Shown: in pieces, positions 1,484-22,990 of the stretch | Layout: every line of letters starts with the position of its first letter | How positions within the stretch are numbered: position 1 is the first letter of the stretch | NCBI GenBank assembly: GCA_016875995.1 | Contig: VGOG01000013.1 | Coordinates: 1-33,194 of the forward strand | Reading direction: 5' to 3' | DNA length: 33,194 bases | DNA from: Chloroflexota bacterium | GTDB taxonomy: Bacteria; Chloroflexota; Anaerolineae; VGOG01 | Notes under the pieces: generated by a model | Told to the model about the DNA's origin: nothing | Database searches by the model: none | Seen by the model: the letters and a program-made list of their open reading frames with translations, nothing else | Position numbers and translations under genes: made by a program

Positions 1484-2947
1484 CTATCTCCGCAGGGTCA
1501 TCACCGTCAGCGAGTGGGCGGGGAACTGGTAGGTGAAATGCGCGGCCACGTCCACCTGGCTCTCCGCTACCCCCACGCGCTCGTGACCGAAATCGTTGGT
1601 GGCATCCACGTCGTCGGCGTTGACCGTGTAGGCCATCGCCGGGCTGGCTGGCTGCCATCCGCCCAGGTCAATCTCCGTCGTCAGCGCCGCTTCTTGGTGC
1701 CGGTTGATGGCTGCCAACGTCAGCGTGTCACCTGCCTCGGACAGGGTGGCGGACACGTCCAGATACGGAAACGGCCCCAGCCCGCGCAGCCGCCGGTCTT
1801 TCGGAGCCTCAGGGAAGGTGTGGGTGTCACACGCCACCCACGCCTCCAAGGCGATGGGCTGGCGGTGGGTTGCGTATAGCAGCAGCGGATAGTAGATCGT
1901 CTGGCGGAACAGGCCGTCCGGCCGGGTGAAGATAGGCGCGATCACGTTGACCATCTGGGCCAGGTTGGCCATGCCCATGGCCCTGGGGTGACGCTGGAAC
2001 TCGTTCAGGTAGGCGGCTACCGCCAGCGCATCGGCCAGGGTGTAGCGCTCCTCGAGCCGTCCCCCCTCGGCTTTCTCGCGGAACCAGACGTTCCACTCGT
2101 CAAAGGCGATGCGGATGGGATGCTCGATCCCCTGTTGAAAGCGGATGGTGTCAATGAGCACTTGCGTCGCCTCAATCATGCGGCCGGCGTGGTGTGGCTG
2201 GAAGACGTTGGCATAGTAGTCACTGCTGCCCGTGTAGAGGTGGATGCTGTGGAAATCCACGATGGGCGCCAGCACCTCCAGCACGATGCGATCCCACTCG
2301 CTGAGGCCGTCCAGACCACAACTGATGAGCTGGATGGATGGATCAACCCACTTCATCAGCTTGGCCGCCTCCCGCGCGTAGCGGGCATATTCTTCGGCTG
2401 GCTTGTGTCCCATCTGCCAGGGCCCATACATCTCATTTCCCAGCCCCCAGTACTTGACGCCGTATGGCTCCGCGTGGCCGCTCTGCCGACGCAGGTTGGC
2501 GTAGAGGGTGTTCCCGCTGCCGTTGCAGTACTCCACCCAGTTACGCGCCTCGTCCAGCGTGCCTGTGCCCAGGTTGATGCAGATGTACGGCTCCGCGCCC
2601 AGATCGCGACAGTAGGCGATGAACTCGTCCGTGCCGAAGCGATTGGACTCCTCGGCGTGCCAGGCCAGTTCCAGGCGCCGTGGCCGCCGCTCCTTGGGCC
2701 CGATACCGTCCTCCCAATGGTAGCCAGAGACGAAGTTGCCGCCCGGCCAGCGCAGGACCGGCGGTCGCAGCCCTTTGGCGGCCTCCAACACATCCCGTCG
2801 GAAGCCGCGGCCATCGCTCAGCGGCGAGCCTTCCTCGTAGATGCCGCCGTAAATGCACCGTCCCAGGTGCTCGATGAATTGACCGTAGATGAGGGGGGTG
2901 ATCCGGCCCAGCCAGCGGTCGGGGTCAATTTTGATGCGTGCGGACAT
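1484..2947 (-). CDS. GH51 alpha-L-arabinofuranosidase
   Basis: A 487-residue protein that should release terminal alpha-L-arabinofuranosyl groups from arabinan, arabinoxylan or arabinogalactan fragments by a retaining mechanism. The N-terminal part is the (beta/alpha)8 barrel: YGQFIEHLGRCIYGGIY at 21-37, LRWPGGNF near 65-72, the acid/base E172 in GLGNEMYG and the nucleophile E284 in AFDEWNVWF. The C-terminal ~150 residues form the usual beta domain. Length fits the family. There is no signal peptide, so it acts on imported oligosaccharides in the cytoplasm. The ATG is preceded by AAGGGGAAAG at a workable distance. Its first 23 bases overlap the end of the upstream UroD-fold gene, which implies translational coupling and places it last in the ribose-type ABC operon. 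Confidence 0.93.
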   Translation of the reverse strand: MSARIKIDPDRWLGRITPLIYGQFIEHLGRCIYGGIYEEGSPLSDGRGFRRDVLEAAKGLRPPVLRWPGGNFVSGYHWEDGIGPKERRPRRLELAWHAEESNRFGTDEFIAYCRDLGAEPYICINLGTGTLDEARNWVEYCNGSGNTLYANLRRQSGHAEPYGVKYWGLGNEMYGPWQMGHKPAEEYARYAREAAKLMKWVDPSIQLISCGLDGLSEWDRIVLEVLAPIVDFHSIHLYTGSSDYYANVFQPHHAGRMIEATQVLIDTIRFQQGIEHPIRIAFDEWNVWFREKAEGGRLEERYTLADALAVAAYLNEFQRHPRAMGMANLAQMVNVIAPIFTRPDGLFRQTIYYPLLLYATHRQPIALEAWVACDTHTFPEAPKDRRLRGLGPFPYLDVSATLSEAGDTLTLAAINRHQEAALTTEIDLGGWQPASPAMAYTVNADDVDATNDFGHERVGVAESQVDVAAHFTYQFPAHSLTVMTLRR

Positions 2948-3992
2948 ACGGTTTCTTTCCCCTTTCTTTCAACTCATTCACGTATCCAGGCTGCTGCTGG
3001 ACTGTCTCGATGAAAGCCAGCATGTTTTCCAGGGGCACATCCCCCTCCACATCGTGGGCCGGAGCAAAGATGTAGCCACCATCGCCGCCGAGTTTCAGGA
3101 GGGACACGGTCTCCCGACGGACATCATCGCTGGAGCCGTAGGGCAGGGTCCGCTGCGTGGACAGGCCTCCGTGGAAAGCCAGGCGACCACGATAGCGCCG
3201 GATCAGCGAGGTCACGTCCATGACCTCCGGCTGAAAGGGGTTGAAGCAATTCACCCCGATCTCGATCAGGTCATCGAACAGCTCGTCCACGTCCCCACAG
3301 GAATGGATCATCACATACTTGCCCGCCTCGCGCACGACACCGTACATGCGTTTCAGCACGGGATAGATGAACCTGTGCCACATAACAGGCCCCATCTGCA
3401 GGCCACGCTGCATGCCCCAATCATCTCCGAAGTAGACGGCGTCAATGTCGTATTGCAGGGCCTGCTTGACCTGGGCGATGTTATAATCGGCGATGGTGTT
3501 CAGCAGGTCGTGGACGAAACCTGGATGGTCGTGGAAATCCATCGTCAGGTTTTCCCAGCCGCGCAGCGTCCAGGCTCTCTCCCAGAGCGAAAAGCCGATC
3601 TGGAAGACGCGGAAGCGGTCGCCTTGTCTCTCGATTCGAGCGGGGATATCGGCGAAGAAGCGGGGGTCCAGGGGGTCAGGAAAGCCGTAGCTTTTGAGCG
3701 TGGGGTGCGGCAAAACGCGGTTCTTGGGGGTGCCGATGTCCTGGTCAATGCTTCTGTCCCATATCACCCCAAACACGTCCTGGAAACAGTCATCGCCGAG
3801 GTCGGTGAAAAACCCGATGTCGCTTCCCAAGCGGAGAAAGTGGTTTTGTAGTACGTCTTCCAGATCAGATTGGCCAAAATGCTGCTGGAGCTTCTCCCGC
3901 GCTTCTTTGGTCAATCCGATGCTCCAGGGAACGTAGGGCGGACGTTTGGCCTCCAGTGCAAGTTTAACGACTTCTCGCCTTGCCATTTTCAA
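2925..3992 (-). CDS. UroD/MtaA-fold protein 1 (putative methyltransferase-like)
   Basis: A 355-residue protein of the uroporphyrinogen decarboxylase superfamily (COG0407 type). It is not HemE: the N-terminal RQAGRY-like motif of true uroporphyrinogen decarboxylases is missing. Visible landmarks are WERAWTLRGWENL at 137-149, YFGDDWG at 187-193, IHSCGDVDELFDDLIEIG at 229-246 and PAHDVEGDVPLENM at 311-324. The H230-x-C232 pair matches two zinc ligands of the MtaA/MtbA methylcobamide:CoM methyltransferases. The position of their third ligand, a cysteine, holds H313 here. A second in-frame ATG lies two codons in (3986). Neither start has a good ribosome-binding site. It is the third of three paralogues in a row. 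The substrate is unknown; the methyl-transfer role is inferred from the family. Confidence 0.8.
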   Translation of the reverse strand: MKMARREVVKLALEAKRPPYVPWSIGLTKEAREKLQQHFGQSDLEDVLQNHFLRLGSDIGFFTDLGDDCFQDVFGVIWDRSIDQDIGTPKNRVLPHPTLKSYGFPDPLDPRFFADIPARIERQGDRFRVFQIGFSLWERAWTLRGWENLTMDFHDHPGFVHDLLNTIADYNIAQVKQALQYDIDAVYFGDDWGMQRGLQMGPVMWHRFIYPVLKRMYGVVREAGKYVMIHSCGDVDELFDDLIEIGVNCFNPFQPEVMDVTSLIRRYRGRLAFHGGLSTQRTLPYGSSDDVRRETVSLLKLGGDGGYIFAPAHDVEGDVPLENMLAFIETVQQQPGYVNELKERGKKPYVRTHQN

Positions 3993-4114
3993 AACTCAGC
4001 CAATACAAATTCTGAGCAGAGCGGACTCCCACGCCCAATGGCACTAACTTTTCAGGCCGCGCGGGCATGATGAATTTTGAGAGCTCACTCGGGTAACCGC
4101 AGGATGATGCTGCA

Positions 4115-4135
4115 CTACAGCTTGGAAAGCTGTAG
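4115..4135. promoter_or_regulatory. Perfect small stem-loop in the UroD1-UroD2 spacer
   Basis: Nine-base arms CTACAGCTT and AAGCTGTAG around a 3-base loop (GGA on the plus strand). It lies downstream of UroD2 in the transcribed strand and is the second of two perfect inverted repeats in this 239-bp spacer. No T-run follows it, so it is not a simple terminator. It could be an mRNA-stability or attenuation element. Confidence 0.55.
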
Positions 4136-4178
4136 ATTGAGTCCGTTCATATCTTCAAAAAGGCTGTCCTCTGCCCAA

Positions 4179-4200
4179 ACTACATCATTAATGATGTAGT
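4179..4200. promoter_or_regulatory. Perfect 22-bp palindrome, possible operator or mRNA hairpin
   Basis: The two 10-base halves ACTACATCAT and ATGATGTAGT flank a central TA and match exactly across all 22 bases. It is AT-rich and sits 31 bases after the end of UroD2 and about 190 bases before UroD1. The symmetry suits a dimeric DNA-binding protein. It does not resemble the LacI-type operators elsewhere in the window. As RNA it would fold with a TTAA loop. The rest of the spacer shows no convincing promoter. Confidence 0.6.
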
Positions 4201-4231
4201 GTCACTTTGCCATACCACCGTCTCACTACCT

Positions 4232-5380
4232 TCAGTACTTTCCGTATTCGAGGGCGGTCTCAAACAGGGTGACGATGTTTTCAGGAGGGACCAGTGCCTG
4301 GATGTTGTGGACGGCGGCGAAGACGAATCCGCCGCCAGGGGCCAGGTCGTCAATGCGTCGCCTGACCTCGTCGGCCACATCTTCCGGTGTGCCGAAAGGC
4401 AATACATGCTGGGTATCAACCCCGCCGCCCCAGAAGACGATGTCTTGGCCATACTCTCGCTTGAGTCGTTTGGTGTCCATGCCCCGCGCCGAGACCTGGA
4501 CCGGGTTGAGAATGTCGAAGCCCAGCTCGATCAAATCCGGGATCAGATCATAGACCGCCCCGCAACTGTGATAATAGACCTTGGCGTCTGTCTTGCTCTT
4601 GATCGCCTCCAGCAGGCGGCGTTGTTTGGGCTTGATCATACGGCGGTAAAGGTCGGGCGAGATGAGCCAGCCATCCTGGCCGCTTACATCGTCCCAATAG
4701 GTGAAGACCTGGAGGTATGGCCCCACCTGCTCCAGATAGTTGTGGCAGGACTCGATGTAGATTTCAGTGATCTGCTCCATCATTCGGTCGGCGAATTTCG
4801 GCTCTTTGACCAGGGCGATGAGGAAATTCTCCAGGCCCATGGTTCTGGCCGGTTGCTCAAAGATGCCGCCGCCGATGACGGCGCTGCCGACCAGGGCATA
4901 ATCGGTGTTTTCGTAGAGGTACCTGGCCTGCTGGCGAAGTCGGGCATTCACCTCTGGGGGGTCGGGGCGCGGCCAGGTATAGCCGTCCAGGGCTTTCATG
5001 GTAGCTTCCTTGATGGGAAAGTCCACCCAGTCGAAGTACAGTCCCTCATGTTTGGGCATGTGCAGCTTGGAGCCCCAGCGGTCAATGAAGGCGTAGTAGT
5101 CGCCGTCCTCGAAGATGTTCACGTCTGGCGCAGTAGCGGCGGGCAACTGGACCATCCGGAAGTCCACGCCGAAGCGCTCCAGAAGGGCCTCGTCCAGGTA
5201 GGGCAGTTGCTGGACGTAGTCTAGCATCCTGAGCTCCTCCACCTCCAGCCCCAGGTGTTTCTTGAGCGCGATGTAGGCGTTTTTGTGGATGGAAGAGCAG
5301 ATCGTACCGCCCAGATCAATGGGGATGCGGTCGGGCTGTTGGTGATTCAGGGCTAACATGACCCGTTCGCGTGGATTCAT
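4232..5380 (-). CDS. UroD/MtaA-fold protein 2 (putative methyltransferase-like)
   Basis: A 382-residue paralogue of the flanking genes, with the typical opening MNPRERVMLALNHQQPDRIP and a TIM-barrel URO-D domain over the full length. Motifs: WDDVSGQDGWLISPDLY at 229-245, YYHSCGAVYDLIPDLIELG at 269-287, VDTQHVLPFGTPEDV at 321-335 and AAVHNIQALVPPENI at 355-369. H271-x-C273 could bind zinc as in MtaA/MtbA, with H358 in place of their third cysteine ligand. HemE signatures are absent. The ATG has no Shine-Dalgarno sequence; it follows a CCTCC-rich heptad repeat that fills the junction with UroD3. Family assignment is solid. Reaction and substrate are not known, and annotation as heme-pathway UroD would be wrong. 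Confidence 0.82.
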   Translation of the reverse strand: MNPRERVMLALNHQQPDRIPIDLGGTICSSIHKNAYIALKKHLGLEVEELRMLDYVQQLPYLDEALLERFGVDFRMVQLPAATAPDVNIFEDGDYYAFIDRWGSKLHMPKHEGLYFDWVDFPIKEATMKALDGYTWPRPDPPEVNARLRQQARYLYENTDYALVGSAVIGGGIFEQPARTMGLENFLIALVKEPKFADRMMEQITEIYIESCHNYLEQVGPYLQVFTYWDDVSGQDGWLISPDLYRRMIKPKQRRLLEAIKSKTDAKVYYHSCGAVYDLIPDLIELGFDILNPVQVSARGMDTKRLKREYGQDIVFWGGGVDTQHVLPFGTPEDVADEVRRRIDDLAPGGGFVFAAVHNIQALVPPENIVTLFETALEYGKY

Positions 5381-5385
5381 AGTTT

Positions 5386-5456
5386 GGAAGTTGGAGGTTG
5401 GAAGTTGGAGGTTGGAGGTGCATGATCCACCTTCTAACCTCTAATCTCTAAACTCC
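5386..5456. repeat. Heptad array with inverted copies, UroD2/UroD3 junction
   Basis: Five heptads of the form GGARGTK lie end to end at 5386-5420. After an 8-base spacer come four pyrimidine heptads of the form AMYYTCY at 5429-5456, giving a long imperfect hairpin. The last codon and the stop codon of UroD3 (TAG at 5448-5450) lie inside the second set. See also 6543-6606, 7692-7760, 8563-8634, 14137-14152 and 19448-19531. Confidence 0.85.
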
Positions 5457-6539
5457 AGTTATGGTATTGACCATAGCCCAGAAGTTTTCCAGGGGGGTAT
5501 CCAGTTGCACGTGATGGGTCGGGCCGATGATCAATCCGCCGTTCTTGCCCAGCGTTTTCAGGCGGGTGATCGCTTCTCTTTCCACCTCGGCCGGTGTTCC
5601 AAAGGGCAGGGTGTATTGCTCATCTATCGAGCCCCAGAAGCACAGTTTGTCCCCGTACTCCTTTTTCAGTTTCTCAGGATCCATGCACCTGGGCTGAACT
5701 GGATTCAGAATGTCCAGGCCGATTTCGATCAGGTCGGGGATGATGGGGTAGATATTGCCGTCCGAATGATAGGCCACTTTCACGTCTGGATTGATGCTCT
5801 TCAGGCTGGAGATAAACGTCGCCAGGCGGGGCTTGAGGAAGCGGCGCCAGGTTTGGGGTGAGATGAGCATCCTATCCTGAGCGCCCACGTCATCCCCGAT
5901 CCAAATCATGTCTACACCCATTTGCACCAGCTTCTTAGCGGCAGTGAGGTGGTAGTTGAACGGTATATCTAAAAGTCTTTCGATGAGATCAGGATGGAGC
6001 GCCAAGTCCATCAGTGTCTTCTCGTATCCTCTGAGCGCCCAGGCGGTTTCAAAGATCGTGGTCACCGTCACGCCCACGATCCAGTATTCGTCCTTGAATT
6101 CCTTGATCACCCTTTCCGTTTCGACGTATAACTCAGGCCGGTTCGGATCGGGCGGTTGATATGACTCTACCGCTTTATCGTCGGCCAGAGGATGACCCAC
6201 TATTTCGGTATAACGGCCTTTGCCGAATCTGGTTTCATATTCTATGTTCTTCCATCCCACTCCCCACTCATCGGTATAGGAAACGCCGTCCTCACTGTAG
6301 AGCTCAGTGGCGTAGTAGGAGTTGGCCCATCCTACAGACGTTAGAAGCATGTCCTGATCCAGGATGCGCTCCAACACGTACGTGTTACCACCTCCGTGGG
6401 GGTTGTAGAAATCTTCATCTTTGAGCCCCAAGTCATCCTTAAGCCTGGTGACGAATTCAGGCGTAAAGCTGATCTGCATGGGACATCTATCAGGCTCCTC
6501 GTGGTGGAGAGCCATGAGTACTCGATCTCGATGCTTCAT
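5448..6539 (-). CDS. UroD/MtaA-fold protein 3 with HSDG in place of HSCG
   Basis: A 363-residue paralogue starting MKHRDRVLMALHHEEPDRCP from the ATG at 6539. A longer TTG-initiated frame to 6587 would only add repeat-derived residues. Motifs: ETAWALRGYEKTLMDL at 164-179, WIGDDVGAQDRMLISP at 213-228, AYHSDGNIYPIIPDLIEIG at 256-274, DEQYTLPFGTPAEV at 306-319 and GPTHHVQLDTPLENF at 339-353. The cysteine of the H-x-C pair is replaced by D260, so metal binding, if any, must differ from its two neighbours. There is no Shine-Dalgarno sequence before the ATG; the leader is a heptad array. It is the first of the three UroD-fold genes after the ABC permease. Confidence 0.82.
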   Translation of the reverse strand: MKHRDRVLMALHHEEPDRCPMQISFTPEFVTRLKDDLGLKDEDFYNPHGGGNTYVLERILDQDMLLTSVGWANSYYATELYSEDGVSYTDEWGVGWKNIEYETRFGKGRYTEIVGHPLADDKAVESYQPPDPNRPELYVETERVIKEFKDEYWIVGVTVTTIFETAWALRGYEKTLMDLALHPDLIERLLDIPFNYHLTAAKKLVQMGVDMIWIGDDVGAQDRMLISPQTWRRFLKPRLATFISSLKSINPDVKVAYHSDGNIYPIIPDLIEIGLDILNPVQPRCMDPEKLKKEYGDKLCFWGSIDEQYTLPFGTPAEVEREAITRLKTLGKNGGLIIGPTHHVQLDTPLENFWAMVNTITGV

Positions 6540-6611: not shown

Positions 6612-7637
6612 TTATGAACGCGCCAGCCTTCTTCTTAGCACAGAGTGCATCGAGACCGAGACGACGATAATCAAACCATAGATCAGTTGCGTCCAGAACC
6701 CTGACAGACCGATGGCCACCGTTCCGGCCTCGATAGCGCCGATGATGAAACAGCCGATAAAGGTCCCCAATATAGTCCCCACTCCGCCGAAAACCGAAGT
6801 GCCGCCCAAGAATACAGAGGCCAGCGTCCTCAGAAGATACCCTTCCCCCAGATTAACCCAGAAGTAGTTCACTTCCAGACTAGCCAAAAGGCCTGCGAAG
6901 GCCGCCGCAAGACCGACGATAGCGAAGGCTATCATCCTTGTTCGGTCAACATTGACACCCATAAGCATAGCACTATCTCTGTTATCCCCAACCAGATAGA
7001 CATGGGCTCCGAATCTGTGACGGTTCAAAAGGACCCACACAACTACGGCCACAATAATCGCCCAGATCATCTGAGCCGGTACGTATCCTGCCAACCTGCC
7101 CACCAGTGCTTGATGTAAGATCGTTCCTTTCAGCGGCACGAGAGAAGCCGGGCGTCCGCCTGTGACCACCAGCACCACTCCTCTCCAAAAGAACTGCGTA
7201 CCGATAGTTGCCACTAGCGAGGGGATTCCGAACTTAACCACTATGATCCCGTTTAGCAATCCTACCAGAAATCCAGTAACCAGTAATAAAACAAAAGCCA
7301 GTGCCCAATTTCCAGTTCTCGGCCAAACGTTGACAAATACCAGCACTCCTATGGCCATAATAGATCCGAAGGACAAATCTATCTCCCCCGCGATAATCAC
7401 CATCGTCAATGGCAAAGCCATAATGGCAAAAAAAGGTATGGTAGACATGAATGCGCCATAGATTTCGGGGGCCAGAAACGTGCGCGGCGCTCCTATGATA
7501 AAAAACGCCCACATGGCTAAAAAGACACCAACTATGCCGATCTGTAGGCCATACCGGCGAGCAAACCTGGCCAGATCCCCATGCCATAACCGCCTTCGGC
7601 TAATAGCCACGGCTGGATCTTCAACACGAGAGGTCAT
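6612..7637 (-). CDS. Ribose-type sugar ABC transporter permease (RbsC/FrcC family)
   Basis: A 341-residue integral membrane protein with about eight to ten hydrophobic segments, matching the family length. The first ~30 residues are cytoplasmic. The conserved stretch IIAGEIDLSFGSIMAI (RbsC signature), the GLLNGIIVVKFGIPSL region and the C-terminal FLGGTSVFGGVGTILGTF are clear. The ATG at 7637 was chosen because AGGGGGAAAG sits just upstream and because the longer frame to 7760 translates a palindromic repeat. It should form the channel of an importer with the ATPase at 7770-8525 and the lipoprotein at 8644-9663. A monosaccharide substrate is likely; which one cannot be told from the sequence. 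Confidence 0.93.
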   Translation of the reverse strand: MTSRVEDPAVAISRRRLWHGDLARFARRYGLQIGIVGVFLAMWAFFIIGAPRTFLAPEIYGAFMSTIPFFAIMALPLTMVIIAGEIDLSFGSIMAIGVLVFVNVWPRTGNWALAFVLLLVTGFLVGLLNGIIVVKFGIPSLVATIGTQFFWRGVVLVVTGGRPASLVPLKGTILHQALVGRLAGYVPAQMIWAIIVAVVVWVLLNRHRFGAHVYLVGDNRDSAMLMGVNVDRTRMIAFAIVGLAAAFAGLLASLEVNYFWVNLGEGYLLRTLASVFLGGTSVFGGVGTILGTFIGCFIIGAIEAGTVAIGLSGFWTQLIYGLIIVVSVSMHSVLRRRLARS

Positions 7638-7691
7638 TTTCTTTCCCCCTAGATTGATATTATTACTACTGCACATCAACTGGATAATCAC

Positions 7692-7760
7692 ATGGAGCAA
7701 GGTCGCAGGGGAGCAGGGTCGCACCCCCCCGCTTCGCTGCCCCCCCGTTCCTTGCTCCAT
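7692..7760. repeat. Octad-type repeat hairpin, ATPase/permease junction
   Basis: Outer arms ATGGAGCAAGG (7692-7702) and CCTTGCTCCAT (7750-7760) are exact inverse complements. Inside are two 16-base units beginning GGAGCA and containing GGTCGCA, then two C7 runs separated by GCTTCGCTG. It fills the spacer between the ATPase and permease genes and has the same architecture as the heptad arrays but a different unit. Confidence 0.8.
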
Positions 7761-7769
7761 TGATTTGTG

Positions 7770-8525
7770 TCAGTCTAGACTTCCTGTCTGTGCCACCCGA
7801 TACATCTTTTCCATAAGTTCGTCCAAAGTGATATCTTTGGTCAAGAACTCACCGGCCACCGCTCCTCTATCCAACACCACAATTCTATCGGCCACTGAAT
7901 ACACGTGAAATACGTTGTGATCAATGAATATGCTCGACTTGCCAGCCTTTTTGATCCCCTGCACAAACTCCAGGAATTTCCTCGTCTCCGACAGCGATAG
8001 ACCCATGGTCGGCTCATCCAGGATGATGAGTTCAGCATTAAAGTAGAGGGCTCTCACAATAGATACGCCTTGCTTTTCCCCCCCAGAAAAGGTCCCGACC
8101 ACCGCATCAGGCGCCACGGCTGCTGACGTAAACCCCATAGACCCGATCATCAGTTTCTCTGTTTCTTGCTTCATCCCATTCACATCGAGGAAGCCAAGGT
8201 GAGTCGTTAGCTCTCGCCCCATAAATATGTTCCTCCATAGGGTTTGGAGGTTTGCCAGGGCGCGTTCCTGATAAACGGTTTCGATTCCCAGTTGTCGGGC
8301 TTCGGCGACAGACAGGCCCTCCAATTTCTGGCCATTGAAATAGACCTCGCCACTGTCCGGTGTATGGTAGCCAGTAACGATTTTGATTAGAGTGGACTTG
8401 CCAGCACCGTTATCGCCTACCAACCCTACAACTTCATTGCAAGCGACTGCAAAGTTGACTTGACGCAGGGCGTTAACTTCTCCGAACCGCTTAGAGATGT
8501 TCCTCATTTCAAGTATATAATCCAT
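7770..8525 (-). CDS. Sugar ABC transporter ATPase, single nucleotide-binding domain
   Basis: A 251-residue ATPase of the ribose-importer class. Walker A GDNGAGKST is at 38-46, the Q-loop in VYQERAL at 84-90, the signature FSGGEKQ at 146-152, Walker B LIILDEP at 166-172 and the switch histidine H203 in IDHNVF. It carries one domain only, unlike two-domain RbsA or XylG, so two copies should pair (FrcA-like). The ATG at 8525 lies 8 bases after AAGGAG; a GTG one codon upstream is possible. It energises import with the flanking permease and binding protein. Confidence 0.93.
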   Translation of the reverse strand: MDYILEMRNISKRFGEVNALRQVNFAVACNEVVGLVGDNGAGKSTLIKIVTGYHTPDSGEVYFNGQKLEGLSVAEARQLGIETVYQERALANLQTLWRNIFMGRELTTHLGFLDVNGMKQETEKLMIGSMGFTSAAVAPDAVVGTFSGGEKQGVSIVRALYFNAELIILDEPTMGLSLSETRKFLEFVQGIKKAGKSSIFIDHNVFHVYSVADRIVVLDRGAVAGEFLTKDITLDELMEKMYRVAQTGSLD

Positions 8526-8562
8526 CACACACTCTCCTTGAGCAAGTACCAGGTACGGGTTA

Positions 8563-8643: not shown

Positions 8644-9663
8644 CTACCGGATCTGCTTCTCGATAAGGGGAGCCAGTGCTTCGACGTTGTCTTTGCTGAT
8701 CAAACCTGACCCGGTGTCAATGTGCAGACCGGAGAATCCGTATTTCTTGGTCAGGCAGATCTGCACGATGGGCAGGTAGCCCTGCAGGAAGGGTTGCTGA
8801 TCGAGCACCAGGTCAGTCCACCCGCCCCTGATCGCTTCTAGCGTAGCGGGCGAGACGTCAAACCCGATGGCGTATATGTCGTCCGGGCCCTTGCCTGCCG
8901 CCGTCAGGTAGGTCTCCAGGGTAGAGGTCAGCCCCCCGTGATCGGTGCAGACCAACTTAACATCAGGCTTGGAGGAGACATATCCGGTGAAGACCGGGGT
9001 GCCTGCGGTAGCGTCAGCGTTTGTAGCCTTGTCAATCTCGATGTAGTCAACGGTCATCCCGGCTTCTTCCAGAGCATCTATGACCCCTTTGGTCCTCAAC
9101 CCGCGGGTCGGTTCGGCCAACAACCCCCAGACCATGGCCCGATCACCCTTTCCGAGGCCAGTCCTCTTGATGGCCTCTTTGCCCAGCAAATAGCCAGACT
9201 CATACAGTTCTTGCCCTACGTAACCGAACCCTACGCTCTTGTACTCCTCCTCGATGGGGGGCAGGGTGGTGTTCTGGCTGGTTACGATGATCCCCATGGC
9301 CGCGGCCTCATCCACTAACGGCCCAAAGGCCTCTGGTCCTGGATGGCCCATGACGGCGATCCCGTCGGGCTTGGTGGCCACAGCCTCCTTGAATTGGCTG
9401 ATCATCTTGTGCGTATCCCAGTCCGAGAACATGTATTCCACACTGGCACCCAGGTCTGCTGCGGCAGCTACGGCTCCATTGTAGACGACAGTGCCGAAGG
9501 GACACCCTGGTGGCCCTCCTGGGAAGAAGACGATTTTCACACCCTCACAGGTCTTGCCAGTGGGGGCTGCTGGGGCTTCTTCGACTGCCTTTGGCGCACA
9601 GGCGGCAACCAGCACCGATAGCACTATCAGGCTACAGATTAACCAACTGAGTTTCTTGTTCAT
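8644..9663 (-). CDS. Sugar-binding lipoprotein of the ribose-type ABC importer
   Basis: A 339-residue periplasmic-binding-protein type 1 (RbsB-like) lipoprotein. The signal peptide MNKKLSWLICSLIVLSVLVA ends at lipobox LVAAC with lipidated C22, followed by a short Ala/Pro linker. The body has the two-lobe fold: KIVFFPGGPPGCPF near the start, GIAVMGHPGPEAFGPLVDEA, and the C-terminal region YAIGFDVSPATLEAIRGGW typical of sugar-binding members. The ATG at 9663 follows AAGGAGG; the longer frame to 9786 runs into the regulator gene's 3' region and is not needed. It is the first structural gene after the LacI regulator. The ligand is unknown. Confidence 0.93.
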   Translation of the reverse strand: MNKKLSWLICSLIVLSVLVAACAPKAVEEAPAAPTGKTCEGVKIVFFPGGPPGCPFGTVVYNGAVAAAADLGASVEYMFSDWDTHKMISQFKEAVATKPDGIAVMGHPGPEAFGPLVDEAAAMGIIVTSQNTTLPPIEEEYKSVGFGYVGQELYESGYLLGKEAIKRTGLGKGDRAMVWGLLAEPTRGLRTKGVIDALEEAGMTVDYIEIDKATNADATAGTPVFTGYVSSKPDVKLVCTDHGGLTSTLETYLTAAGKGPDDIYAIGFDVSPATLEAIRGGWTDLVLDQQPFLQGYLPIVQICLTKKYGFSGLHIDTGSGLISKDNVEALAPLIEKQIR

Positions 9664-9782
9664 TTTTCCTCCTTGGGAAGATTGGTTGGGCTTCCACGTT
9701 GAATCCTTCTCGGGAAAGCCCAGTGTGTGAACCACAGAGCTATACATGGAAACAGCGGATAACATCATCGTTAGGCCATTTC

Positions 9783-10820
9783 TCACCCCCTTTCACGAAC
9801 CGAGCTCTCTCGGATAACCAACTGGGGTTGGAGCAAGACGGCCTTCGGTTCAACAGCCGCTCTACCCTGCTGACTGGCCTCTATGATGCAACCAAGCTCT
9901 CTGACCGCACAACGACCCAGCTCAACCATGTCCTGCCGTACAGTGGACAGCGGGGGATAGAAATAGGCCGACTCGGGGATATCATCGAAGCCCACCAGCG
10001 CCAGGTCTTCTGGTACCCGGATGCCCATTTTGCGCGCTGCCTGTAGCGCACCCAGGGCCATTTGATCGTTGCAGACAAACACCGCGTCTACGTCTGGGTG
10101 CTGTTCCAGTAGTTGGCGTAAGCACCACTCTCCACTTTCGGCCGTCCAATCCCCCTCCACAACGAGATGATCTTCGCTGCCCGCCTCTTTCAGTGCGTCT
10201 TGCCAGCCAAGCCGACGTTGGCGTGCCTCCCACCAATCCAGGGGGCCGGTGATCAGACCAATGGTTTGATATCCCTGATCGAGCAAATGTTCAGTGGCCA
10301 TGCGACCGCCACTTCGATTATCCACTGCGACAACGGACAGATTGGGATGAGGTTCCATGCTGAGGAAAACGATCGGTACCGAAAGTTGTGGGGTTCCCTG
10401 TTGTATCCAGTCCCGATTATTGCCAATTTCAGGCATGGCCCAGATGATACCATCCACATACCGCGATAACATATCACGTAACACCTGTTCCACGTCATTT
10501 TTCTCGGGCTGGCGCATCAGGCTCAGAAGGAGGCTATAGCCCAATTCATTTGCTTGCCGCTCGATTCCTGAAAGAGTACGTGAAGGGCCAAAGTATTCCA
10601 ATCCGTAGCCGACCACTCCCAGTGTGCCACTGGATCCCTGGATCAGGCTGCGGGCAATGTTGCTAGGCTGATATCCCAGCCGGTCGATGACTTGCAGTAC
10701 TCGCCGTCGGGTTTCTGGGGCAACGTTTGGATGGTAGTTAATGACGCGCGAAACAGTCTGCGTGGAAACCCCTGCCTCTGTTGCTACTTGGGTGATAGTT
10801 ACCCTTCTCTTGACGGTCAT
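9783..10820 (-). CDS. LacI-family transcriptional regulator 1
   Basis: A 345-residue regulator. Residues 8-30 (TITQVATEAGVSTQTVSRVIN) form the helix-turn-helix, and the hinge region RVLQVIDRLGYQPSNIARSL leads into a periplasmic-binding-protein-like effector domain with GRMATEHLLDQGYQTIGLITG and the dimer-region motif VGFDDIPESAYFYPPLSTVRQD. Length is standard. It is the first gene after a strong promoter with an operator in the start-site region, so it probably represses itself and the downstream ribose-type transporter, UroD-fold and GH51 genes until a sugar ligand binds. The effector is not identifiable. Confidence 0.93.
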   Translation of the reverse strand: MTVKRRVTITQVATEAGVSTQTVSRVINYHPNVAPETRRRVLQVIDRLGYQPSNIARSLIQGSSGTLGVVGYGLEYFGPSRTLSGIERQANELGYSLLLSLMRQPEKNDVEQVLRDMLSRYVDGIIWAMPEIGNNRDWIQQGTPQLSVPIVFLSMEPHPNLSVVAVDNRSGGRMATEHLLDQGYQTIGLITGPLDWWEARQRRLGWQDALKEAGSEDHLVVEGDWTAESGEWCLRQLLEQHPDVDAVFVCNDQMALGALQAARKMGIRVPEDLALVGFDDIPESAYFYPPLSTVRQDMVELGRCAVRELGCIIEASQQGRAAVEPKAVLLQPQLVIRESSVRERG

Positions 10821-10908: not shown

Positions 10909-11027
10909 AGTGAGTAGGGTCTTCATTTCGATGTCCCGCAGTTGTACTGCGGGACTGACCCACCCACCACGGAGCAACGCAACTCGCGGAGTCCAACTCC
11001 GCGGGATCAGGAGTGAGTAGGTCTTCA
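10909..11027. repeat. Two-hairpin repeat element bounded by direct repeats
   Basis: AGTGAGTAGGGTCTTCA at 10909-10925 recurs with one base missing at 11012-11027. Between them are two strong hairpins: GTCCCGCAGT/ACTGCGGGAC with loop TGT (10933-10955), and CGCGGAGT/ACTCCGCG with loop CCA (10985-11003). The right-hand direct repeat contains the stop codon of the M24-like gene. The hairpins are well placed to end transcription of the catabolic operon, although no T-run follows them. Confidence 0.8.
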
Positions 11028-12116
11028 CAGCATCTCCAAAATGGCGGGGCGCGCGAATGTCTGGCCGTTTACTGTCACCAGCAGCGTCGGCCAGTGCTCG
11101 ATAGCGGTGAGCACCTCGTTGCCCGCCTCGCCCACCAGGATGGTGTCCTCCGACTTCGTCCCGCTGATGGACGGGTTCCAGGCATAGACCTGTCCGACCG
11201 AGACGACGTCGGTCGAGCCGGGCGTGGCGACGTACTCGCGGGGCTCGTAGCCCGCCGGGCCGCCCTGATGATGTAGACGCCACTCGTCGGGAAAGCCAGC
11301 TTCGGCATAGGCGCCCATCCCGCGCCGGAAGATCTCACCGAGCGACCGGCCAGGGCGGGTGGCGGCGATGAACGTGGCGTCAACCTGTGCCACCGCCTGG
11401 GCTTTGCGACGCAGATTGTCTGGCAGACGGCCGAAGTGAACGAACCGCGTCAACGAGCACACCAGCCCCCACCGTCGTCCGCACAACACGAGCATGGCGT
11501 ACCGATCGAGCTTCTTGTCGGTAGGCAGCGGGTGGCGGAAGGCAAAGATACGCTCGTCGGTGGCGATCAGATTCACGATGGCCTGCACGCCACGGCTCTC
11601 CGCCTGGTGGGCCAGGAGCGCGGCGATCTGATACTCGGTCTGGCCGGGGCGGACGGCCCGCACAGCGCTGTCCATGGCCTCGGCGCACAGGCGGCCCAGC
11701 TCTCGAAAGCGCTCGCCCTCCTCGGGGGTCAGATTAGCGCGCCGGCGGGCCAGTTCGCCTGAGAGATCGGTTGCCCCAGGATAGGGCCTGTCGGCGCCGA
11801 GCCTCAATCCCTGGGTCAGTTCGGCCACGGTGTCCTGCGGTTCGTGCCAGGGTGTGACCCGAAACTCCCAACCCTGGGCCGCCAGTTTCTCTTCCTGCTC
11901 CAGGCGCGGGGCCTCGATGTTGTTGGTGATGAGGTAGCGGCCAGAGGGCGTGATCAGCAGCGCGGCCTCACCGTTGGTGGTCGCCGTGTTCACGTACGAC
12001 GCCGCGCCGCACATGGCCCAGGCGAAACTGCTCACCCGCCGCAGGAGCAGCGCATCCAGCTTACGCTCCGCCAGCAGAGCCTGGATACGATCCTGCTTTT
12101 GGCTGAATTCAGTCAT
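11025..12116 (-). CDS. M24-fold (aminopeptidase P/creatinase-like) protein lacking metal aspartates
   Basis: A 363-residue protein with the two-domain layout of Xaa-Pro peptidases: a creatinase-type N-terminal domain (LLAERKLDALLLRRVSSFAW) and a pita-bread C-terminal domain. The start at 12116 puts GAGGAG 7 bases upstream; an ATG at 12122 has it too close. In active M24 enzymes the metal site includes aspartates in VDFG and SDITRT-like motifs. Here these read VLCGRRWGLVCSLTRF (about 210-225), so both are replaced. A histidine in LHHQGG and a glutamate in SEDTILV remain. It may be a metal-free lyase or hydrolase (creatinase works without metal) or a binding protein. It overlaps the GH42 gene by 8 bases, so it belongs to the sugar operon. 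Confidence 0.82.
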   Translation of the reverse strand: MTEFSQKQDRIQALLAERKLDALLLRRVSSFAWAMCGAASYVNTATTNGEAALLITPSGRYLITNNIEAPRLEQEEKLAAQGWEFRVTPWHEPQDTVAELTQGLRLGADRPYPGATDLSGELARRRANLTPEEGERFRELGRLCAEAMDSAVRAVRPGQTEYQIAALLAHQAESRGVQAIVNLIATDERIFAFRHPLPTDKKLDRYAMLVLCGRRWGLVCSLTRFVHFGRLPDNLRRKAQAVAQVDATFIAATRPGRSLGEIFRRGMGAYAEAGFPDEWRLHHQGGPAGYEPREYVATPGSTDVVSVGQVYAWNPSISGTKSEDTILVGEAGNEVLTAIEHWPTLLVTVNGQTFARPAILEML

Positions 12117-14121
12117 TGGCATTCTCCTCGTCTAGCAGTATCAGAACGTCCCGCGGCGCAACGGCGGCCCTCCCTTCGAGGACCGCTGAGCCATCCAATA
12201 GATCCACGTAACGCCCATCCAAAGTGACCTCCTGCTCTCGCTCAGCGTGGTTGAGCACGAACAGCAGCCGATCTCCCTGCCACCGTTCGGTCACCTCGAC
12301 CCCTCTCGGTACGGCGAGGATCTCCTGCACTCCGGCCAGGTTGAGAAGCCAGCCAACCAGCGCCTCGTACAGGCGGGCATCGCCCACGGTGCCCACGTAC
12401 ACCACCTGGCCCTGGCCAAATCGGTTCAGCGTGATGGCGGGCTTACCAGCGTAATAATCCTGGGTGTAGCGTGCAATCGCCGTTGTCCCGTGGGGCTGCA
12501 GCACATCGCACCACACCTTCGCAGCGACGGGGGAGTGGGAAGCCAGTTCGGGCAAGGTAAACTCCACTTCGTTGTACATGTCGGCCCCCAGGGAATCGTA
12601 CTCCTCCACCTCGACGCCGCATAACTCGGCCAGCAGACCGGGCAGCCGCTGGTTCACCACCGCGTTGGCTTCGTCTTTCACGCCGCTGCGGGGAGTGACG
12701 ACGAGCACACCCCCCGCTGCTACGAAGCGCTTGAGGTTCCCAGCAACAGCGTCCGGCAGAACGTGCAAGGCCGGAGCCACGACCAACTGGTAGGACGAGA
12801 GGTCAGCGGTCGGAGCCACGACATCCACCAGGACGTGGCGACGATGAAGAGCGCGATAGACCTGATGGAAATGATTCGGATAACTGAACCCCGGGTTGTT
12901 GGCCTGAATCTGAAAAGCGAAACGCGAGTCGTAGGAGAGGATCATGGCGACAGACGGCTTGACGCTGGAGCCGACAAGCCGCTCGCCAATCGTCTTGATC
13001 TCGGCGCCCATGCGCTTGATTTCCTGGTAACGCCGACCGGCGTGTCCGTCGTGGTCGAGCAGGCCATGCCAGTATTGCTCCGTGCCAAAGCGTGCTGTAC
13101 GCCAGCGGAAAAAGAGGACGGCGTCCGCGCCGTGGGCGATGGCTTGATAGGCCCACAGCCGTAGCTCGCCAGGGCGCGGGGCCACGCTGACCATCTCCCA
13201 GCCGCCTTGCCCCGCCTGCTGTTCCATCACCCAGAAGTTCTGGCGCTTCAGGCCGCGCATGGCGTCGTGAGCGAGGGCGGCATAGCTAGGATCCACCTGG
13301 GCTTGTAGCAGCCAGCCCGTGCGTTGGTAATTATCCCAGGCCACGAAGTCAAGATCACGGGCCAGGTCGAAGTAATTGAGGCCCTCGTAATGGAAGCCAT
13401 GAAAGTTGTGGGTGACGAAATGCTCAGGGCACTTCTCGCGCAGGATGTCCACCTGCATCTGCTGATAGGCCACGTACGAGTCGGACGAGAAGCGGAAGAA
13501 GTCGAGGGCCAGGCCGGGGTTGGGCGAACCGCCGGTCTCGAGCGGCAGGGGGATTTGATCCCAGTCTGTGTAGACATGGCTCCAAAAAATGGTGCCCCAC
13601 TTTTCGTTGAGTTCGTCAAGAGACCCATAACGACGGCGCAGCCAGTCCTGAAATGCGCGAGCGCAGACAGGACAGTAGCAGCGGTCGCCGAACTCATTGT
13701 CAATCTGCCAGCCGATGACCGCCGGATGGTCTGCATAGTGTTCGGCCATCCTGGTCACGATGCGGTGGGTATACTCGCGATAGACCAGGTTGTTCGGGCA
13801 GTACTCGCGGCGATTGCCGAACGTGACCCGCTGACCGTCCTCGCGGACGCGGAAGCTGTCGGGATGCCTGGCCATCAGCCACGGGGGCGGTGAGGCGGTG
13901 GGAGTTCCCAGCACAACACGAATGTCATGAGAAGTCAGGATGTCAATCGCGCGGTCGAGCCAGTCGAAGTCGTATTGTCCCTGTTTGGGTTCCATCCTGG
14001 ACCAGGCGAACTCGGCCAGGCGCACCACGTTGAAGCCCGCCTCGGCCATCAACCGCGCATCCTCCGGCCAACGTTCTTCGGGCCAGTGTTCGGGGTAGTA
14101 GTCAACGCCAAAATAAAACAC
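12109..14121 (-). CDS. GH42 beta-galactosidase 1
   Basis: A 670-residue cytoplasmic glycosidase that removes terminal beta-galactose, and in some family members alpha-L-arabinopyranose, from imported oligosaccharides. The GH42 opening FYFGVDYYPEHWPEERW is clear. The acid/base is E143 in WQIDNEFG, the nucleophile E300 in FWVMEQQAGQ, and the structural zinc cysteines are C108 (EYCPNN) and C148, C150, C153 (CYCPVC). A trimerisation domain and a C-terminal beta domain follow, giving the usual length. Translation starts at GTG (14121), supported by GGAGGAG just upstream and by the family N-terminus. It follows the sugar kinase by 32 bases and overlaps the M24-fold gene. Confidence 0.94.
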   Translation of the reverse strand: MFYFGVDYYPEHWPEERWPEDARLMAEAGFNVVRLAEFAWSRMEPKQGQYDFDWLDRAIDILTSHDIRVVLGTPTASPPPWLMARHPDSFRVREDGQRVTFGNRREYCPNNLVYREYTHRIVTRMAEHYADHPAVIGWQIDNEFGDRCYCPVCARAFQDWLRRRYGSLDELNEKWGTIFWSHVYTDWDQIPLPLETGGSPNPGLALDFFRFSSDSYVAYQQMQVDILREKCPEHFVTHNFHGFHYEGLNYFDLARDLDFVAWDNYQRTGWLLQAQVDPSYAALAHDAMRGLKRQNFWVMEQQAGQGGWEMVSVAPRPGELRLWAYQAIAHGADAVLFFRWRTARFGTEQYWHGLLDHDGHAGRRYQEIKRMGAEIKTIGERLVGSSVKPSVAMILSYDSRFAFQIQANNPGFSYPNHFHQVYRALHRRHVLVDVVAPTADLSSYQLVVAPALHVLPDAVAGNLKRFVAAGGVLVVTPRSGVKDEANAVVNQRLPGLLAELCGVEVEEYDSLGADMYNEVEFTLPELASHSPVAAKVWCDVLQPHGTTAIARYTQDYYAGKPAITLNRFGQGQVVYVGTVGDARLYEALVGWLLNLAGVQEILAVPRGVEVTERWQGDRLLFVLNHAEREQEVTLDGRYVDLLDGSAVLEGRAAVAPRDVLILLDEENAND

Positions 14122-14136
14122 GGACTCCTCCTATTG

Positions 14137-14152
14137 CTGATTCGCTGATTCG
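14137..14152. repeat. Minimal octad repeat, kinase/GH42 junction
   Basis: CTGATTCG occurs twice in tandem in the 32-base gap between the kinase stop and the GH42 start. The unit resembles CTGATTCC of the array at 8563-8634 and CTNATTCC at 19477-19500, but inverted copies are absent. It is perhaps a young or decayed array. Confidence 0.6.
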
Positions 14153-14153
14153 G

Positions 14154-15665
14154 CTACTCAGATGCCAGGTCGCGCAGATACTCTCCCATCAGGGGCCACA
14201 GCCGTCTGTACTGTTCAAAGCGACTCTGGTAGAGCTCATGTTGGCGTGCGTTCGGCTCGAAGGTCTGCTCCAGGCCCACCATGGCCTCGACGCCGGCTTC
14301 ATACGATGGGAACACTCCGCTCCCAACCCCGGCCATGATCGCCGCCCCCAGAGCGCCAGCCTCGGTGATCCTGGGGCGAACGAAGGGCCGACCCATGATA
14401 TCCGCACAGAGCTGGATCCAGGCGTCCGACTTGCTGCCGCCGCCCACCGCCCGAAAGTCGGCGATCTCGATCCCGGTGGGAGGGAGCGATTCGACGCACT
14501 CCTTAAGATAAAACGTAGTCCCCTCCAGGATCCCCTTCAGAATGTCGCCCCGCGATGTCTCCAGCCGCAAGCCGGCCATGACCCCACAGGAGTCCGAAAT
14601 GAACTGCGGCGGCCCGGTGGTGGTGAAGTGCGGCAGAACCATGATGCCGCTTGGCCCCTCCGGGAGCTCCGAAAAGAGGTCGGCGTACACGTCCCTTCCC
14701 GCCTCTTCTGCCTGGCGATGCTCCACGGCGGCAAAGGTGTCCCTGAACCATTTGACCAGCGACCCGCCCTGGTTGTAGATGAAACATACGTACTTGCCCG
14801 ATACGGCGTGATGTTCCGTGTTCAGCCCCCGTTCGATCATCACCGCCGGCTCCCGCCGCTGGCTGAACACGGGCGTGATACAGATAAAGGTGCCCATCCC
14901 GTACACGGCGCGTCCTTCTTCGATCACCCCACAGCCCACGGCGTTGGCGCACTGGTCGTGCGCGCCGCTGACCACGGAGACGTTGGACGGCAGGCCGATT
15001 TCGCCTGCCACACGGTCAGAAACCGCGCCAATCACGGTACCCGAGGGGGCGGTGTCAGGAAGTTTGGAGCGATCGAGCCCGGCCAGCGCCAGTAACTCCT
15101 CCGACCAGGTTTCTCGGTCAATGTCGAAAAGCAGGGTGCGGTTGGCCAGGGAATAATCCACCACAGCATCCGCGCCGAGCATGAACGAGACGAAACTGCT
15201 CCACAGGAGAAACTTGTGTGCTCGCTGGTAGAGCTGGGACTGATGCTCCTTGATCCACTTGAGCTTCGTCAGGCCGTAATGGTTGCCGAGCGTGTTCCCG
15301 TTGATGCGGTAGAGCTGTTCGTTGGTCAGGGCACAGCTCAGGCTCTCCAGGTACTCCTCCCCTCGCCCGTCGAAGTTCAAGATGGACGGACCGAGCACCT
15401 GGCGGTCTTCGGTCACCGCAACCGTGGCCTCGCCCAGCGAGGATACAGCCAGGGCCTGGACCGGGTCCGAGGCAGAGTGGGATACGACCTGGCTTATCGT
15501 CCTTTTGACTTTGTCCCACACCTCAACCGCATCCAGTTCTGCCCACCCTGGCTTTGGCCTCTGGACGTCGTATTCCTCATAGGCCGAGGCAAGCAAACGC
15601 CCCTCTTCGGAGAACACAGCCGCCTTGCACCCTGTGGTGCCTACGTCAATTCCGAGCAGACTCAT
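14154..15665 (-). CDS. FGGY-family carbohydrate kinase (xylulokinase/fuculokinase-like)
   Basis: A 503-residue sugar kinase of standard FGGY length. The phosphate-1 motif LLGIDVGTTGCKAAVF is at 3-18, the substrate aspartate D237 in VSGAHDQCANAVGCG, and the adenosine motif in FRAVGGGSKSDAWIQLCADI, followed by GALGAAIMAG. It should phosphorylate a ketose made by the isomerase at 19524-20957, feeding the adjacent aldolase. Xylulose, ribulose and fuculose cannot be told apart by eye. Its ATG overlaps the aldolase stop (ATGA), a sign of coupled translation. Confidence 0.9.
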   Translation of the reverse strand: MSLLGIDVGTTGCKAAVFSEEGRLLASAYEEYDVQRPKPGWAELDAVEVWDKVKRTISQVVSHSASDPVQALAVSSLGEATVAVTEDRQVLGPSILNFDGRGEEYLESLSCALTNEQLYRINGNTLGNHYGLTKLKWIKEHQSQLYQRAHKFLLWSSFVSFMLGADAVVDYSLANRTLLFDIDRETWSEELLALAGLDRSKLPDTAPSGTVIGAVSDRVAGEIGLPSNVSVVSGAHDQCANAVGCGVIEEGRAVYGMGTFICITPVFSQRREPAVMIERGLNTEHHAVSGKYVCFIYNQGGSLVKWFRDTFAAVEHRQAEEAGRDVYADLFSELPEGPSGIMVLPHFTTTGPPQFISDSCGVMAGLRLETSRGDILKGILEGTTFYLKECVESLPPTGIEIADFRAVGGGSKSDAWIQLCADIMGRPFVRPRITEAGALGAAIMAGVGSGVFPSYEAGVEAMVGLEQTFEPNARQHELYQSRFEQYRRLWPLMGEYLRDLASE

Positions 15666-16579
15666 TTCACCAACCTTCTACTGCCGGCCAGGCCGAAGTA
15701 ATCCCGGATGAGCCAGCAGGTGCGTTCATACACCGCATCCTGGGCAGCAATTACATTGCCCGATTCCCTCAGGGCCGACTCGTAGGCCTGTCGGATCTCG
15801 GTGCCGATGTTCACCTTGGCGATACCCTTCTTGATGGCCGCAAGCAAATGCTCCCGTTTCACCCCGGAGCCGCCATGCAGGACCAGCGGTGTGCACGTCG
15901 CTTCACGAAGCCTGTCAAGGTGATCGAGGTTGAGCCTGGCCTCGACCTTCTTCTTATCTTTCAACACGCCGGAAACCGCCCCATGGATGTTCCCTATGGC
16001 CACCGAGAGCCAATCACAACCGCTTTCCCGCACAAATCGTTCCGCCTCTTGGATGTCGGTGAAGCCCAGGCCAGACTCAAAGAGGTCCTCATAAGGGGGG
16101 AGAGGCCCTGCTTCGTGTCCCAGCACCGCGCCCAGCTCGGCCTCGCAGGGTAGGCCCGCCTGGTGAGCCATCTCTACCACCTGCCGCGTGGCCTTGATGT
16201 TTTCCTCCAGGTCGAGGCGTGAGCCATCCACCATGACGGAGTGGTAGCCCAGCTCAATCGCCTCGCGGATGATGGCGAGGAAATCCACCCGTTGGTTGTC
16301 CTCGTCAATCACCGGCACGTGGTCCAGGTGAATCCGAACGTAATCGGGCTCGTTCCACTTCACGAATTCTGCCATGACGGCGGCCGGGCTTTGGGCCTCG
16401 AACTTGATCCACTCCAGCCGCGCCACTTCGATCAGGGCGAAGCAATCCTGATCCACCACCGCCCGGATCAGCGGTTCGACCATGGGGAGGTATGGTACGT
16501 TAAAGGCCGGGATCATCAGGCCCGCCCTTTGGGCGTTGTTGACGATGTCAGCGGTAGTTTGCAATTGAACGGTTTTCAT
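15662..16579 (-). CDS. Class II ketose-bisphosphate-type aldolase (FbaA/KbaY/GatY family)
   Basis: A 305-residue zinc aldolase starting MKTVQLQTTADIVNNAQRAG. The longer frame to 16819 only reads through the upstream gene in another frame. The catalytic aspartate and first zinc histidine are D86-H87 in IHLDHV. Further zinc histidines are H199 in GNIHG and H235 in LHGGSG, and NIGT near 257-260 binds phosphate. It should cleave a phosphorylated ketose to DHAP plus an aldehyde. The gap to the upstream aldo/keto reductase is two bases, and it overlaps the kinase by four. Substrate specificity (fructose, tagatose or a deoxyketose phosphate) is unresolved. Confidence 0.9.
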   Translation of the reverse strand: MKTVQLQTTADIVNNAQRAGLMIPAFNVPYLPMVEPLIRAVVDQDCFALIEVARLEWIKFEAQSPAAVMAEFVKWNEPDYVRIHLDHVPVIDEDNQRVDFLAIIREAIELGYHSVMVDGSRLDLEENIKATRQVVEMAHQAGLPCEAELGAVLGHEAGPLPPYEDLFESGLGFTDIQEAERFVRESGCDWLSVAIGNIHGAVSGVLKDKKKVEARLNLDHLDRLREATCTPLVLHGGSGVKREHLLAAIKKGIAKVNIGTEIRQAYESALRESGNVIAAQDAVYERTCWLIRDYFGLAGSRRLVK

Positions 16580-16581
16580 TG

Positions 16582-17436: not shown

Positions 17437-17452
17437 GTTGCTCCTTTCGTCG

Positions 17453-19489: not shown

Positions 19490-19531
19490 TCCCTTATTCC
19501 CCTGAGACCTGAGACTTGAGACCTCAGACCT
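19448..19531. repeat. Heptad/octad array spanning the isomerase/GH42-2 junction
   Basis: Four RCAGGTC heptads (19448-19475), three CTNATTCC octads (19477-19500), then heptads GAGACCT, GAGACTT, GAGACCT and CAGACCT (19504-19531), which are near inverse complements of the first set. The isomerase stop (19524-19526) and the GH42-2 start (19487-19489) both lie inside the array, so the repeat supplies codons to both genes. Confidence 0.87.
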
Positions 19532-21998: not shown

Positions 21999-22001
21999 AC
22001 C

Positions 22002-22919: not shown

Positions 22920-22943
22920 CGCTTACCTCCTCGCCAGATGATA

Positions 22944-22976
22944 AGGTGAGGAGAGCCATGTTGGCTCTCCTCACCT
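22944..22976 (-). promoter_or_regulatory. Intercistronic stem-loop between binding protein 2 and permease
   Basis: Perfect 15-bp arms, AGGTGAGGAGAGCCA and TGGCTCTCCTCACCT, with a 3-base loop. There is no T-run on the minus strand side (TTATCATC follows), so it is more likely a processing and stability element or partial attenuator than a full terminator. Confidence 0.75.
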
Positions 22977-22990
22977 GTTGGGCTGGGTCA

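Follow-up and report, generated by a model that had tools for sequence, protein, structure and literature searches.

Methylated sugars are present in plant and algal polysaccharides. In marine bacteria, a cytochrome P450 oxidatively demethylates 6-O-methyl-galactose, a reaction that needs oxygen and releases formaldehyde (PMC10033563). Corrinoid-dependent O-demethylation of aromatics is carried out by the O-demethylases of acetogens and methanogens (MtvB/OdmB/VdmB/MtoB), composed of a UroD-fold methyltransferase I (MTI), an MtaC-type corrinoid protein, a pterin-binding methyltransferase II (MTII) and a RACo-type activase. In the chloromethane:corrinoid methyltransferase CmuA, the UroD-fold and corrinoid-binding domains are fused, and the same fold is shared by the MtaA/MtbA methylcobamide:coenzyme M (CoM) methyltransferases (PDB 4ay7; Mlp gene clusters, PMC10418091) and by HemE, the uroporphyrinogen decarboxylase. 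No description of corrinoid demethylation of methylated sugars was found in the open-access literature searched. Here we examine a 33,194-nucleotide stretch of a Chloroflexota genome (contig VGOG01000013.1, hereafter the window), in which three UroD-fold proteins (UroD1-3) are encoded in a sugar operon with its own LacI-family regulator. We consider it likely that UroD1-3 serve as the methyltransferase I (substrate:corrinoid) of an anaerobic, corrinoid-dependent demethylation of an imported O-methyl sugar.

In its parts list, the system is a version of the O-demethylase systems already known; in substrate, UroD branch, active-site pattern and spread, it appears to be new. Unlike the acetogen and methanogen enzymes, the UroDs described here occur in sugar operons and polysaccharide loci, appear to form a distinct branch (the aromatic clade being compared via CdmB only, E 0.008), and are present in several MTI copies per cassette, with H-C-H or H-D-H sites. 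The sugar-operon setting also separates them from CmuA, and the bacterial sugar context from MtaA/MtbA. The P450 route likewise frees a methylated sugar for catabolism, by an enzyme unrelated to the UroD fold. The three proteins are as follows (L, G and C below denote loci, genomes and contigs, respectively):

2925..3986, minus strand: UroD1, 353 aa (PF01208, E=2e-24; E136 / H228-S-C230-G / H311)
4232..5380, minus strand: UroD2, 382 aa (PF01208, E=4e-23; E175 / H271-S-C273-G / H358)
5448..6539, minus strand: UroD3, 363 aa (PF01208, E=3e-30; E164 / H258-S-D260-G / H342)

All three belong to the URO-D superfamily, with PF01208 scores of 86.7, 82.4 and 105.7 bits for UroD1, 2 and 3, respectively (gathering cut-off 23.9). 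A preliminary description of this DNA had held that none is HemE-like, and this is borne out: the hemE model (TIGR01464, cut-off 303) gives 27.1 bits for UroD1, 18.4 for UroD2 and no match for UroD3. Membership in the MtaA/CmuA subfamily was also rejected (TIGR01463, mtaA_cmuA; 65.2, 54.1 and 75.4 bits versus a cut-off of 235), as was identity with the MtaA/MtbA CoM methyltransferases, all curated cut-offs being missed and the H-x-C...C zinc triad being absent. Instead, UroD1 (HSCG, APAHDV) and UroD2 (HSCG, AAVHNI) display an H-C-H pattern and UroD3 (HSDG, GPTHHV) an H-D-H pattern; the motifs first reported for these proteins, HSCG in two and HSDG in one, each with a C-terminal His motif, were thus found again in the three open reading frames (ORFs). 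Compared with MtaA (4ay7), UroD1 and UroD2 retain two of the three ligand positions, the third Cys having become His. That a His stands at this position was correctly seen in the preliminary description, but it is no special replacement, since in profile alignments it shares a column with the histidine of the HemE NLGHGI motif. The sites therefore combine the HemE His with the H-x-C of MtaA, or with H-x-D.

Among orthologs of at least 60% identity, H, C and H are kept in UroD1 (12 sequences) and UroD2 (7), and H258, D260 and H342 are invariant in 21 UroD3 orthologs and homologs; the motifs are therefore not due to chance. In a residue alignment of 144 UroD ORFs and the three window proteins, Glu with H-C-H occurs in 79 rows, Glu with H-D-H in 36 and the MtaA-like H-C-C in two. 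Structure prediction, which had been proposed as a check, places the fold nearest to that of the methylcobamide:CoM methyltransferase among solved structures: 4ay7 is the best PDB match of the AlphaFold models of both UroD1 (mean predicted local distance difference test score, pLDDT, 93.6; E 1.2e-13) and UroD3 (mean pLDDT 83.7). In the UroD1 model, E136, D188/D189, H228/C230 and H311 lie just past barrel strands E125-130, E183-187, E224-228 and E305-309, a predicted arrangement that fits a single shared pocket. CdmB (PDB 9rui), the lone member of the aromatic MTI clade compared, gives a weaker match (E=0.008) than either MtaA or HemE.

The link to corrinoid chemistry is provided by related operons. 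The MtaC-type corrinoid protein was recognized by PF02607 plus PF02310 and its GDLHDIGKN motif. In the G138 cassette (L124), the UroDs of which are 87-88% identical to those of the window, an MtaC gene lies between UroD2 and UroD3; in G057 (L127), a single strand carries the order LacI-RbsBAC-UroD2-UroD3-isomerase-aldolase-kinase-UroD1-MtaC-isomerase. UroD3 also adjoins MtaC in G108 and G245, and is one gene apart from it in G111. Moreover, UroD2-type proteins 46% and 43% identical to that of the window are fused to a complete MtaC in G200 (L227:5412-7388) and G096 (L198:8856-10913), as in CmuA, and G176 encodes a fusion of MtaC with a divergent UroD (L206:3242-5173). A corrinoid protein is thus in the operon or fused in the orthologs of G138 and G057 and in the fusion relatives of G200 and G096, though not in the window.

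Among the matches listed, MtaC lies within 6 kb of at least 7 of 68 UroD1-type, at least 14 of 150 UroD2-type and at least 4 of 22 UroD3 genes, compared with 0.27, 0.70 and 0.14, respectively, expected by uniform placement. At the E-value limits applied, 22 of the 249 genomes of the class contain a UroD3 ortholog, 100 a UroD2-type protein and 46 a UroD1-type protein. RACo is present in all 22 genomes with UroD3 versus 158 of the 227 without (p 8e-4), in 95 of 100 with UroD2-type versus 85 of 149 without (p 3e-12) and in 44 of 46 with UroD1-type versus 136 of 203 without (p 2e-5). MtaC behaves similarly (22/22 versus 149/227 for UroD3, p 2e-4; 94/100 UroD2-type genomes, p 7e-14; 45/46 UroD1-type genomes, p 1e-7), all these p-values taking no account of the shared ancestry of the genomes. 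The neighbourhood survey suggested in the preliminary description thus revealed a strong co-occurrence with corrinoid and one-carbon genes (in-operon MtaC, pterin methyltransferase and RACo). The idea put forward there, methyl removal by UroD-fold and corrinoid proteins in a sugar operon, has gained on its corrinoid side, by this co-occurrence, the MtaC fusions and the MtaA-like fold; the accompanying statement that the corrinoid gene is located elsewhere is true of this genome and fails for several orthologous operons, where the gene lies inside. Taken together, gene association, fusions, conserved residues and fold make methyl transfer via a corrinoid very probable, as judged from sequence. 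The methylated sugar as substrate we infer from the operon context, and the chemistry, the exact sugar, the metal and the partner corrinoid protein in this genome are likewise what we infer.

More complete gene sets occur in other loci. L193 (G034) codes for an enolase-type dehydratase, a short-chain dehydrogenase/reductase, pterin methyltransferase, MtaC, UroD, an Rbs-type ABC ATPase and a substrate-binding protein; L194 (G138) for pterin methyltransferase, MtaC, UroD, a PfkB kinase and a 2-keto-3-deoxy-6-phosphogluconate aldolase; and L200 (G039) for RACo, pterin methyltransferase, MtaC, UroD, a member of the glucosamine-6-P isomerase family and an amidohydrolase. In L202, L204 and L205, UroDs and MtaC are accompanied by a galactokinase-type kinase, an FGGY kinase and xylose-isomerase-like TIM barrels. 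MTII and activase are available in the window's own genome (C177, where RACo adjoins pterin methyltransferase) and in-operon in L193, L194, L200 and L293. These loci also bear on the possibility that UroD1-3 are themselves MTII-type enzymes, passing methyl from a methyl-corrinoid to a thiol or other acceptor while another protein acts as demethylase. MtaA is indeed the closest solved structure, H-x-C is the MtaA motif, and the second, H-C-C UroD of the Bacteroidota (see below) probably has such a role. In L193, L194 and L200, however, the pterin methyltransferase already supplies MTII, leaving UroD as the sole MTI candidate, and UroD1-3 lack the third Cys (UroD3 lacks both). We therefore regard an MTII assignment of the three proteins as quite improbable.

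The UroD3 family extends beyond the class, to at least 80 loci in Chloroflexota, Acidobacteriota, Spirochaetota, Bacteroidota, Planctomycetota, Verrucomicrobiota and others, according to the record titles. In the whole genome of the gut type strain Phocaeicola coprophilus DSM 18228, the two UroD genes, the one RACo and the one free MtaC all lie at C54:57056-76966, together with SusC/SusD, a GH2 protein and a sodium:solute symporter; the other PF02607 match, in a 916-residue frame, is presumably MetH. The same four genes occupy about 6 kb in Parabacteroides (G250), with the same symporter type and GH2. In the Bacteroidota locus, the UroD3 homolog (52% identical) retains H-D-H, and the second UroD is of the MtaA-type H-C-C pattern. 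This sequence pattern suggests that H-D-H and H-C-H UroDs take the methyl group from the substrate and that the H-C-C UroD hands it to a thiol.

The exclusive co-location of RACo and MtaC with UroD in these Bacteroidota genomes also argues against a sugar reaction apart from methyl transfer (decarboxylation, isomerisation or a lyase reaction), for which the UroD barrel would have been recruited to carbohydrate chemistry. The tight linkage to sugar genes, the C-terminal His that aligns with that of HemE, a LacI-UroD fusion in the window's own genome, and the absence of a corrinoid gene from the window and from most UroD3 loci listed would all accord with such a reaction, but it leaves no place for the MtaC fusions or the in-cassette MtaC, and we consider it highly improbable.

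Several observations nevertheless weigh against an MTI role in sugar demethylation, in addition to the shared ancestry behind the co-occurrence values. No corrinoid, MTII or RACo gene lies within the window, and most UroD3 loci listed are without MtaC nearby: 11 of the 80 have one, RACo being found in four and pterin methyltransferase in two. The window's genome possesses five MtaC genes (on C39, C104, C118, C168 and C172), which group with the methylamine/betaine-type MtaC or apart, none of the five falling in the main UroD-operon clade. With so many UroD paralogs in a genome, their roles may not be the same, some UroDs near MtaC could be MTII, and the evidence on the substrate comes from operon content.

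That content is consistent across species. The remaining genes of the cassette are as follows:

9783..10820, minus strand: LacI-family regulator of the cassette (PF00356 + Peripla_BP_3)
8644..9786, minus strand: sugar-binding protein, Peripla_BP_4 (PF13407, E=1e-31)
7770..8528, minus strand: sugar ABC ATPase (PF00005; best NCBIfam matches are xylose/galactofuranose/ribose ATPases)
6612..7760, minus strand: sugar ABC permease, BPD_transp_2, ribose type (PF02653, E=1.5e-40); the actual start probably lies further downstream in the ORF
1484..2947, minus strand: alpha-L-arabinofuranosidase, GH51 type (PF06964, E=3.8e-38), with a 23-bp overlap with the UroD1 end

The same-strand order is LacI, sugar-binding protein, ATPase, permease, UroD3, UroD2, UroD1 and arabinofuranosidase, with successive gaps of -4, 115, 9, 72, 67, 245 and -23 bp. 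The ORFs and their Pfam matches thus confirm the three UroD-fold genes between a LacI-regulated ribose-type ABC importer and an arabinofuranosidase. No cobalamin riboswitch or other Rfam element was detected at the gathering threshold in the window and five related loci, and no PHROGs phage-family match was found.

UroD1, UroD2 and UroD3 occur together in L123 (G048), L124 (G138) and L127 (G057). Of the three, UroD3 shows the closest linkage to the ABC importer: in many genomes it adjoins the same RbsB/A/C genes (57-86% identical), and elsewhere it is accompanied by the isomerase, class II aldolase, FGGY kinase and M24 protein that the window also encodes. In the window these sugar-pathway genes include:

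14154..15665, minus strand: FGGY sugar kinase, xylulokinase-like (PF00370 + PF02782); 64-69% orthologs in L127, L128 and L132
15662..16819, minus strand: class II aldolase (PF01116, E=1.4e-60); 65-75% orthologs in L127, L128, L129 and L132
19524..20957, minus strand: fucose-isomerase-like sugar isomerase (PF02952, E=2.6e-30); orthologs of 63-73% identity accompany UroD cassettes in L127, L128, L129, L132, L136 and L140

The conserved UroD3 synteny places the window sugar genes at 11025-20957 in the same unit as the UroD cassette; a second LacI/ABC operon (21120-25567) stands before them. The M24/creatinase-type protein (11025-12122) is itself conserved in these sugar loci, with 63-73% orthologs in L124, L128, L132, L136 and L140. 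Also recurrent is a family of about 365 aa without a Pfam match (E up to 0.001), found in L130:8433-9530, L132:7499-8602, L133, L135, L136 and L155, and directly beside UroD3 in five of them.

The identity of the sugar was approached through structural relatives: the PDB offered none for the isomerase and generic sugar binders only for the sugar-binding protein. The best NCBIfam match of the latter is a rhizopine (O-methyl inosamine) binder (NF052284), far below threshold at 93.7 bits versus a cut-off of 420. This match, together with the glucosamine-6-P isomerase-family genes of some related loci, which suggest amino sugars, would suit corrinoid methyl transfer from another donor, such as a sugar or inositol methylated on N or S, or a methoxylated compound other than a sugar (e.g., lignin-derived) co-degraded with plant polysaccharide; aromatic methyl ethers and haloalkanes are indeed substrates of known UroD-fold MTI enzymes (PMC13222342). 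Nevertheless, what is conserved around the UroDs is a sugar importer with an isomerase, a kinase, an aldolase, dehydratases, glycosidases and SusC/SusD, and sugar families dominate among 87 neighbours tallied by Pfam. No aromatic-degradation genes were seen among the conserved neighbours, and the weak match of CdmB also speaks against an aromatic donor. A donor other than an O-methyl sugar is therefore unlikely in our judgement.

For the demethylation of an O-methyl sugar, the following route may be envisaged. The ABC importer would take up a sugar bearing one or more methyl groups, and each UroD would then hold this sugar at the opening of its TIM barrel. There, the ether oxygen would be activated by the H-C/D-H residues together with the conserved Glu (probably a metal site). 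The methyl group would pass to the Co(I) of an MtaC-type corrinoid protein, from which a pterin-binding methyltransferase would move it to tetrahydrofolate; in Bacteroidota, an MtaA-type UroD would instead move it to a thiol. RACo would re-reduce inactive Co(II), and the demethylated sugar would enter the neighbouring isomerase-kinase-aldolase route. The several UroDs per cassette may serve different methyl positions or sugars.

On balance, we find it reasonably probable that this represents a widespread, hitherto undescribed anaerobic pathway for O-methyl sugars, in which a UroD branch with H-C-H/H-D-H sites carries out corrinoid-dependent demethylation and the methyl group goes to folate or a thiol. 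Its genes would be part of sugar ABC operons (Chloroflexota, Spirochaetota and others) and, in gut Bacteroidota, of a polysaccharide utilization locus. If so, it would account for how anaerobes living in sediments, digesters and the gut use methylated sugars. The breakdown of glycans would be coupled to one-carbon metabolism and to the supply of B12, and a large set of UroD-like proteins misnamed as heme enzymes would gain a function. Since the type strain P. coprophilus DSM 18228 carries a compact version, the system is open to direct testing.

As for the window's own genome, any corrinoid partner named for UroD1-3 would be a guess. The MtaC on C168 found no support as the obvious partner, as it groups with the methylamine/betaine-type MtaC; on C118, a UroD-MtaC-UroD arrangement lies beside a GH31 gene. 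The LacI-UroD fusion mentioned above is a 726-aa frame on C137 (L021:8765-10945), in which a UroD domain is attached to a complete LacI repressor; ABC permeases and an FGGY kinase are encoded next to it. Elsewhere, in each of two loci (L195:10960-15445 and L197:599-5213), four further tandem UroD genes are located beside a UroD-MtaC pair, and G060, G007 and G244 each yield over 60 UroD candidates at first look (as many as 84), indicating a large family expansion. The window also codes for a 505-aa protein (28014-29531) without a Pfam match at E 1e-6 and, at 3-1322, for a divergent Cpn60/GroEL-type chaperonin (61 bits; profile positions 1-388 of 490), which is cut by the window edge.

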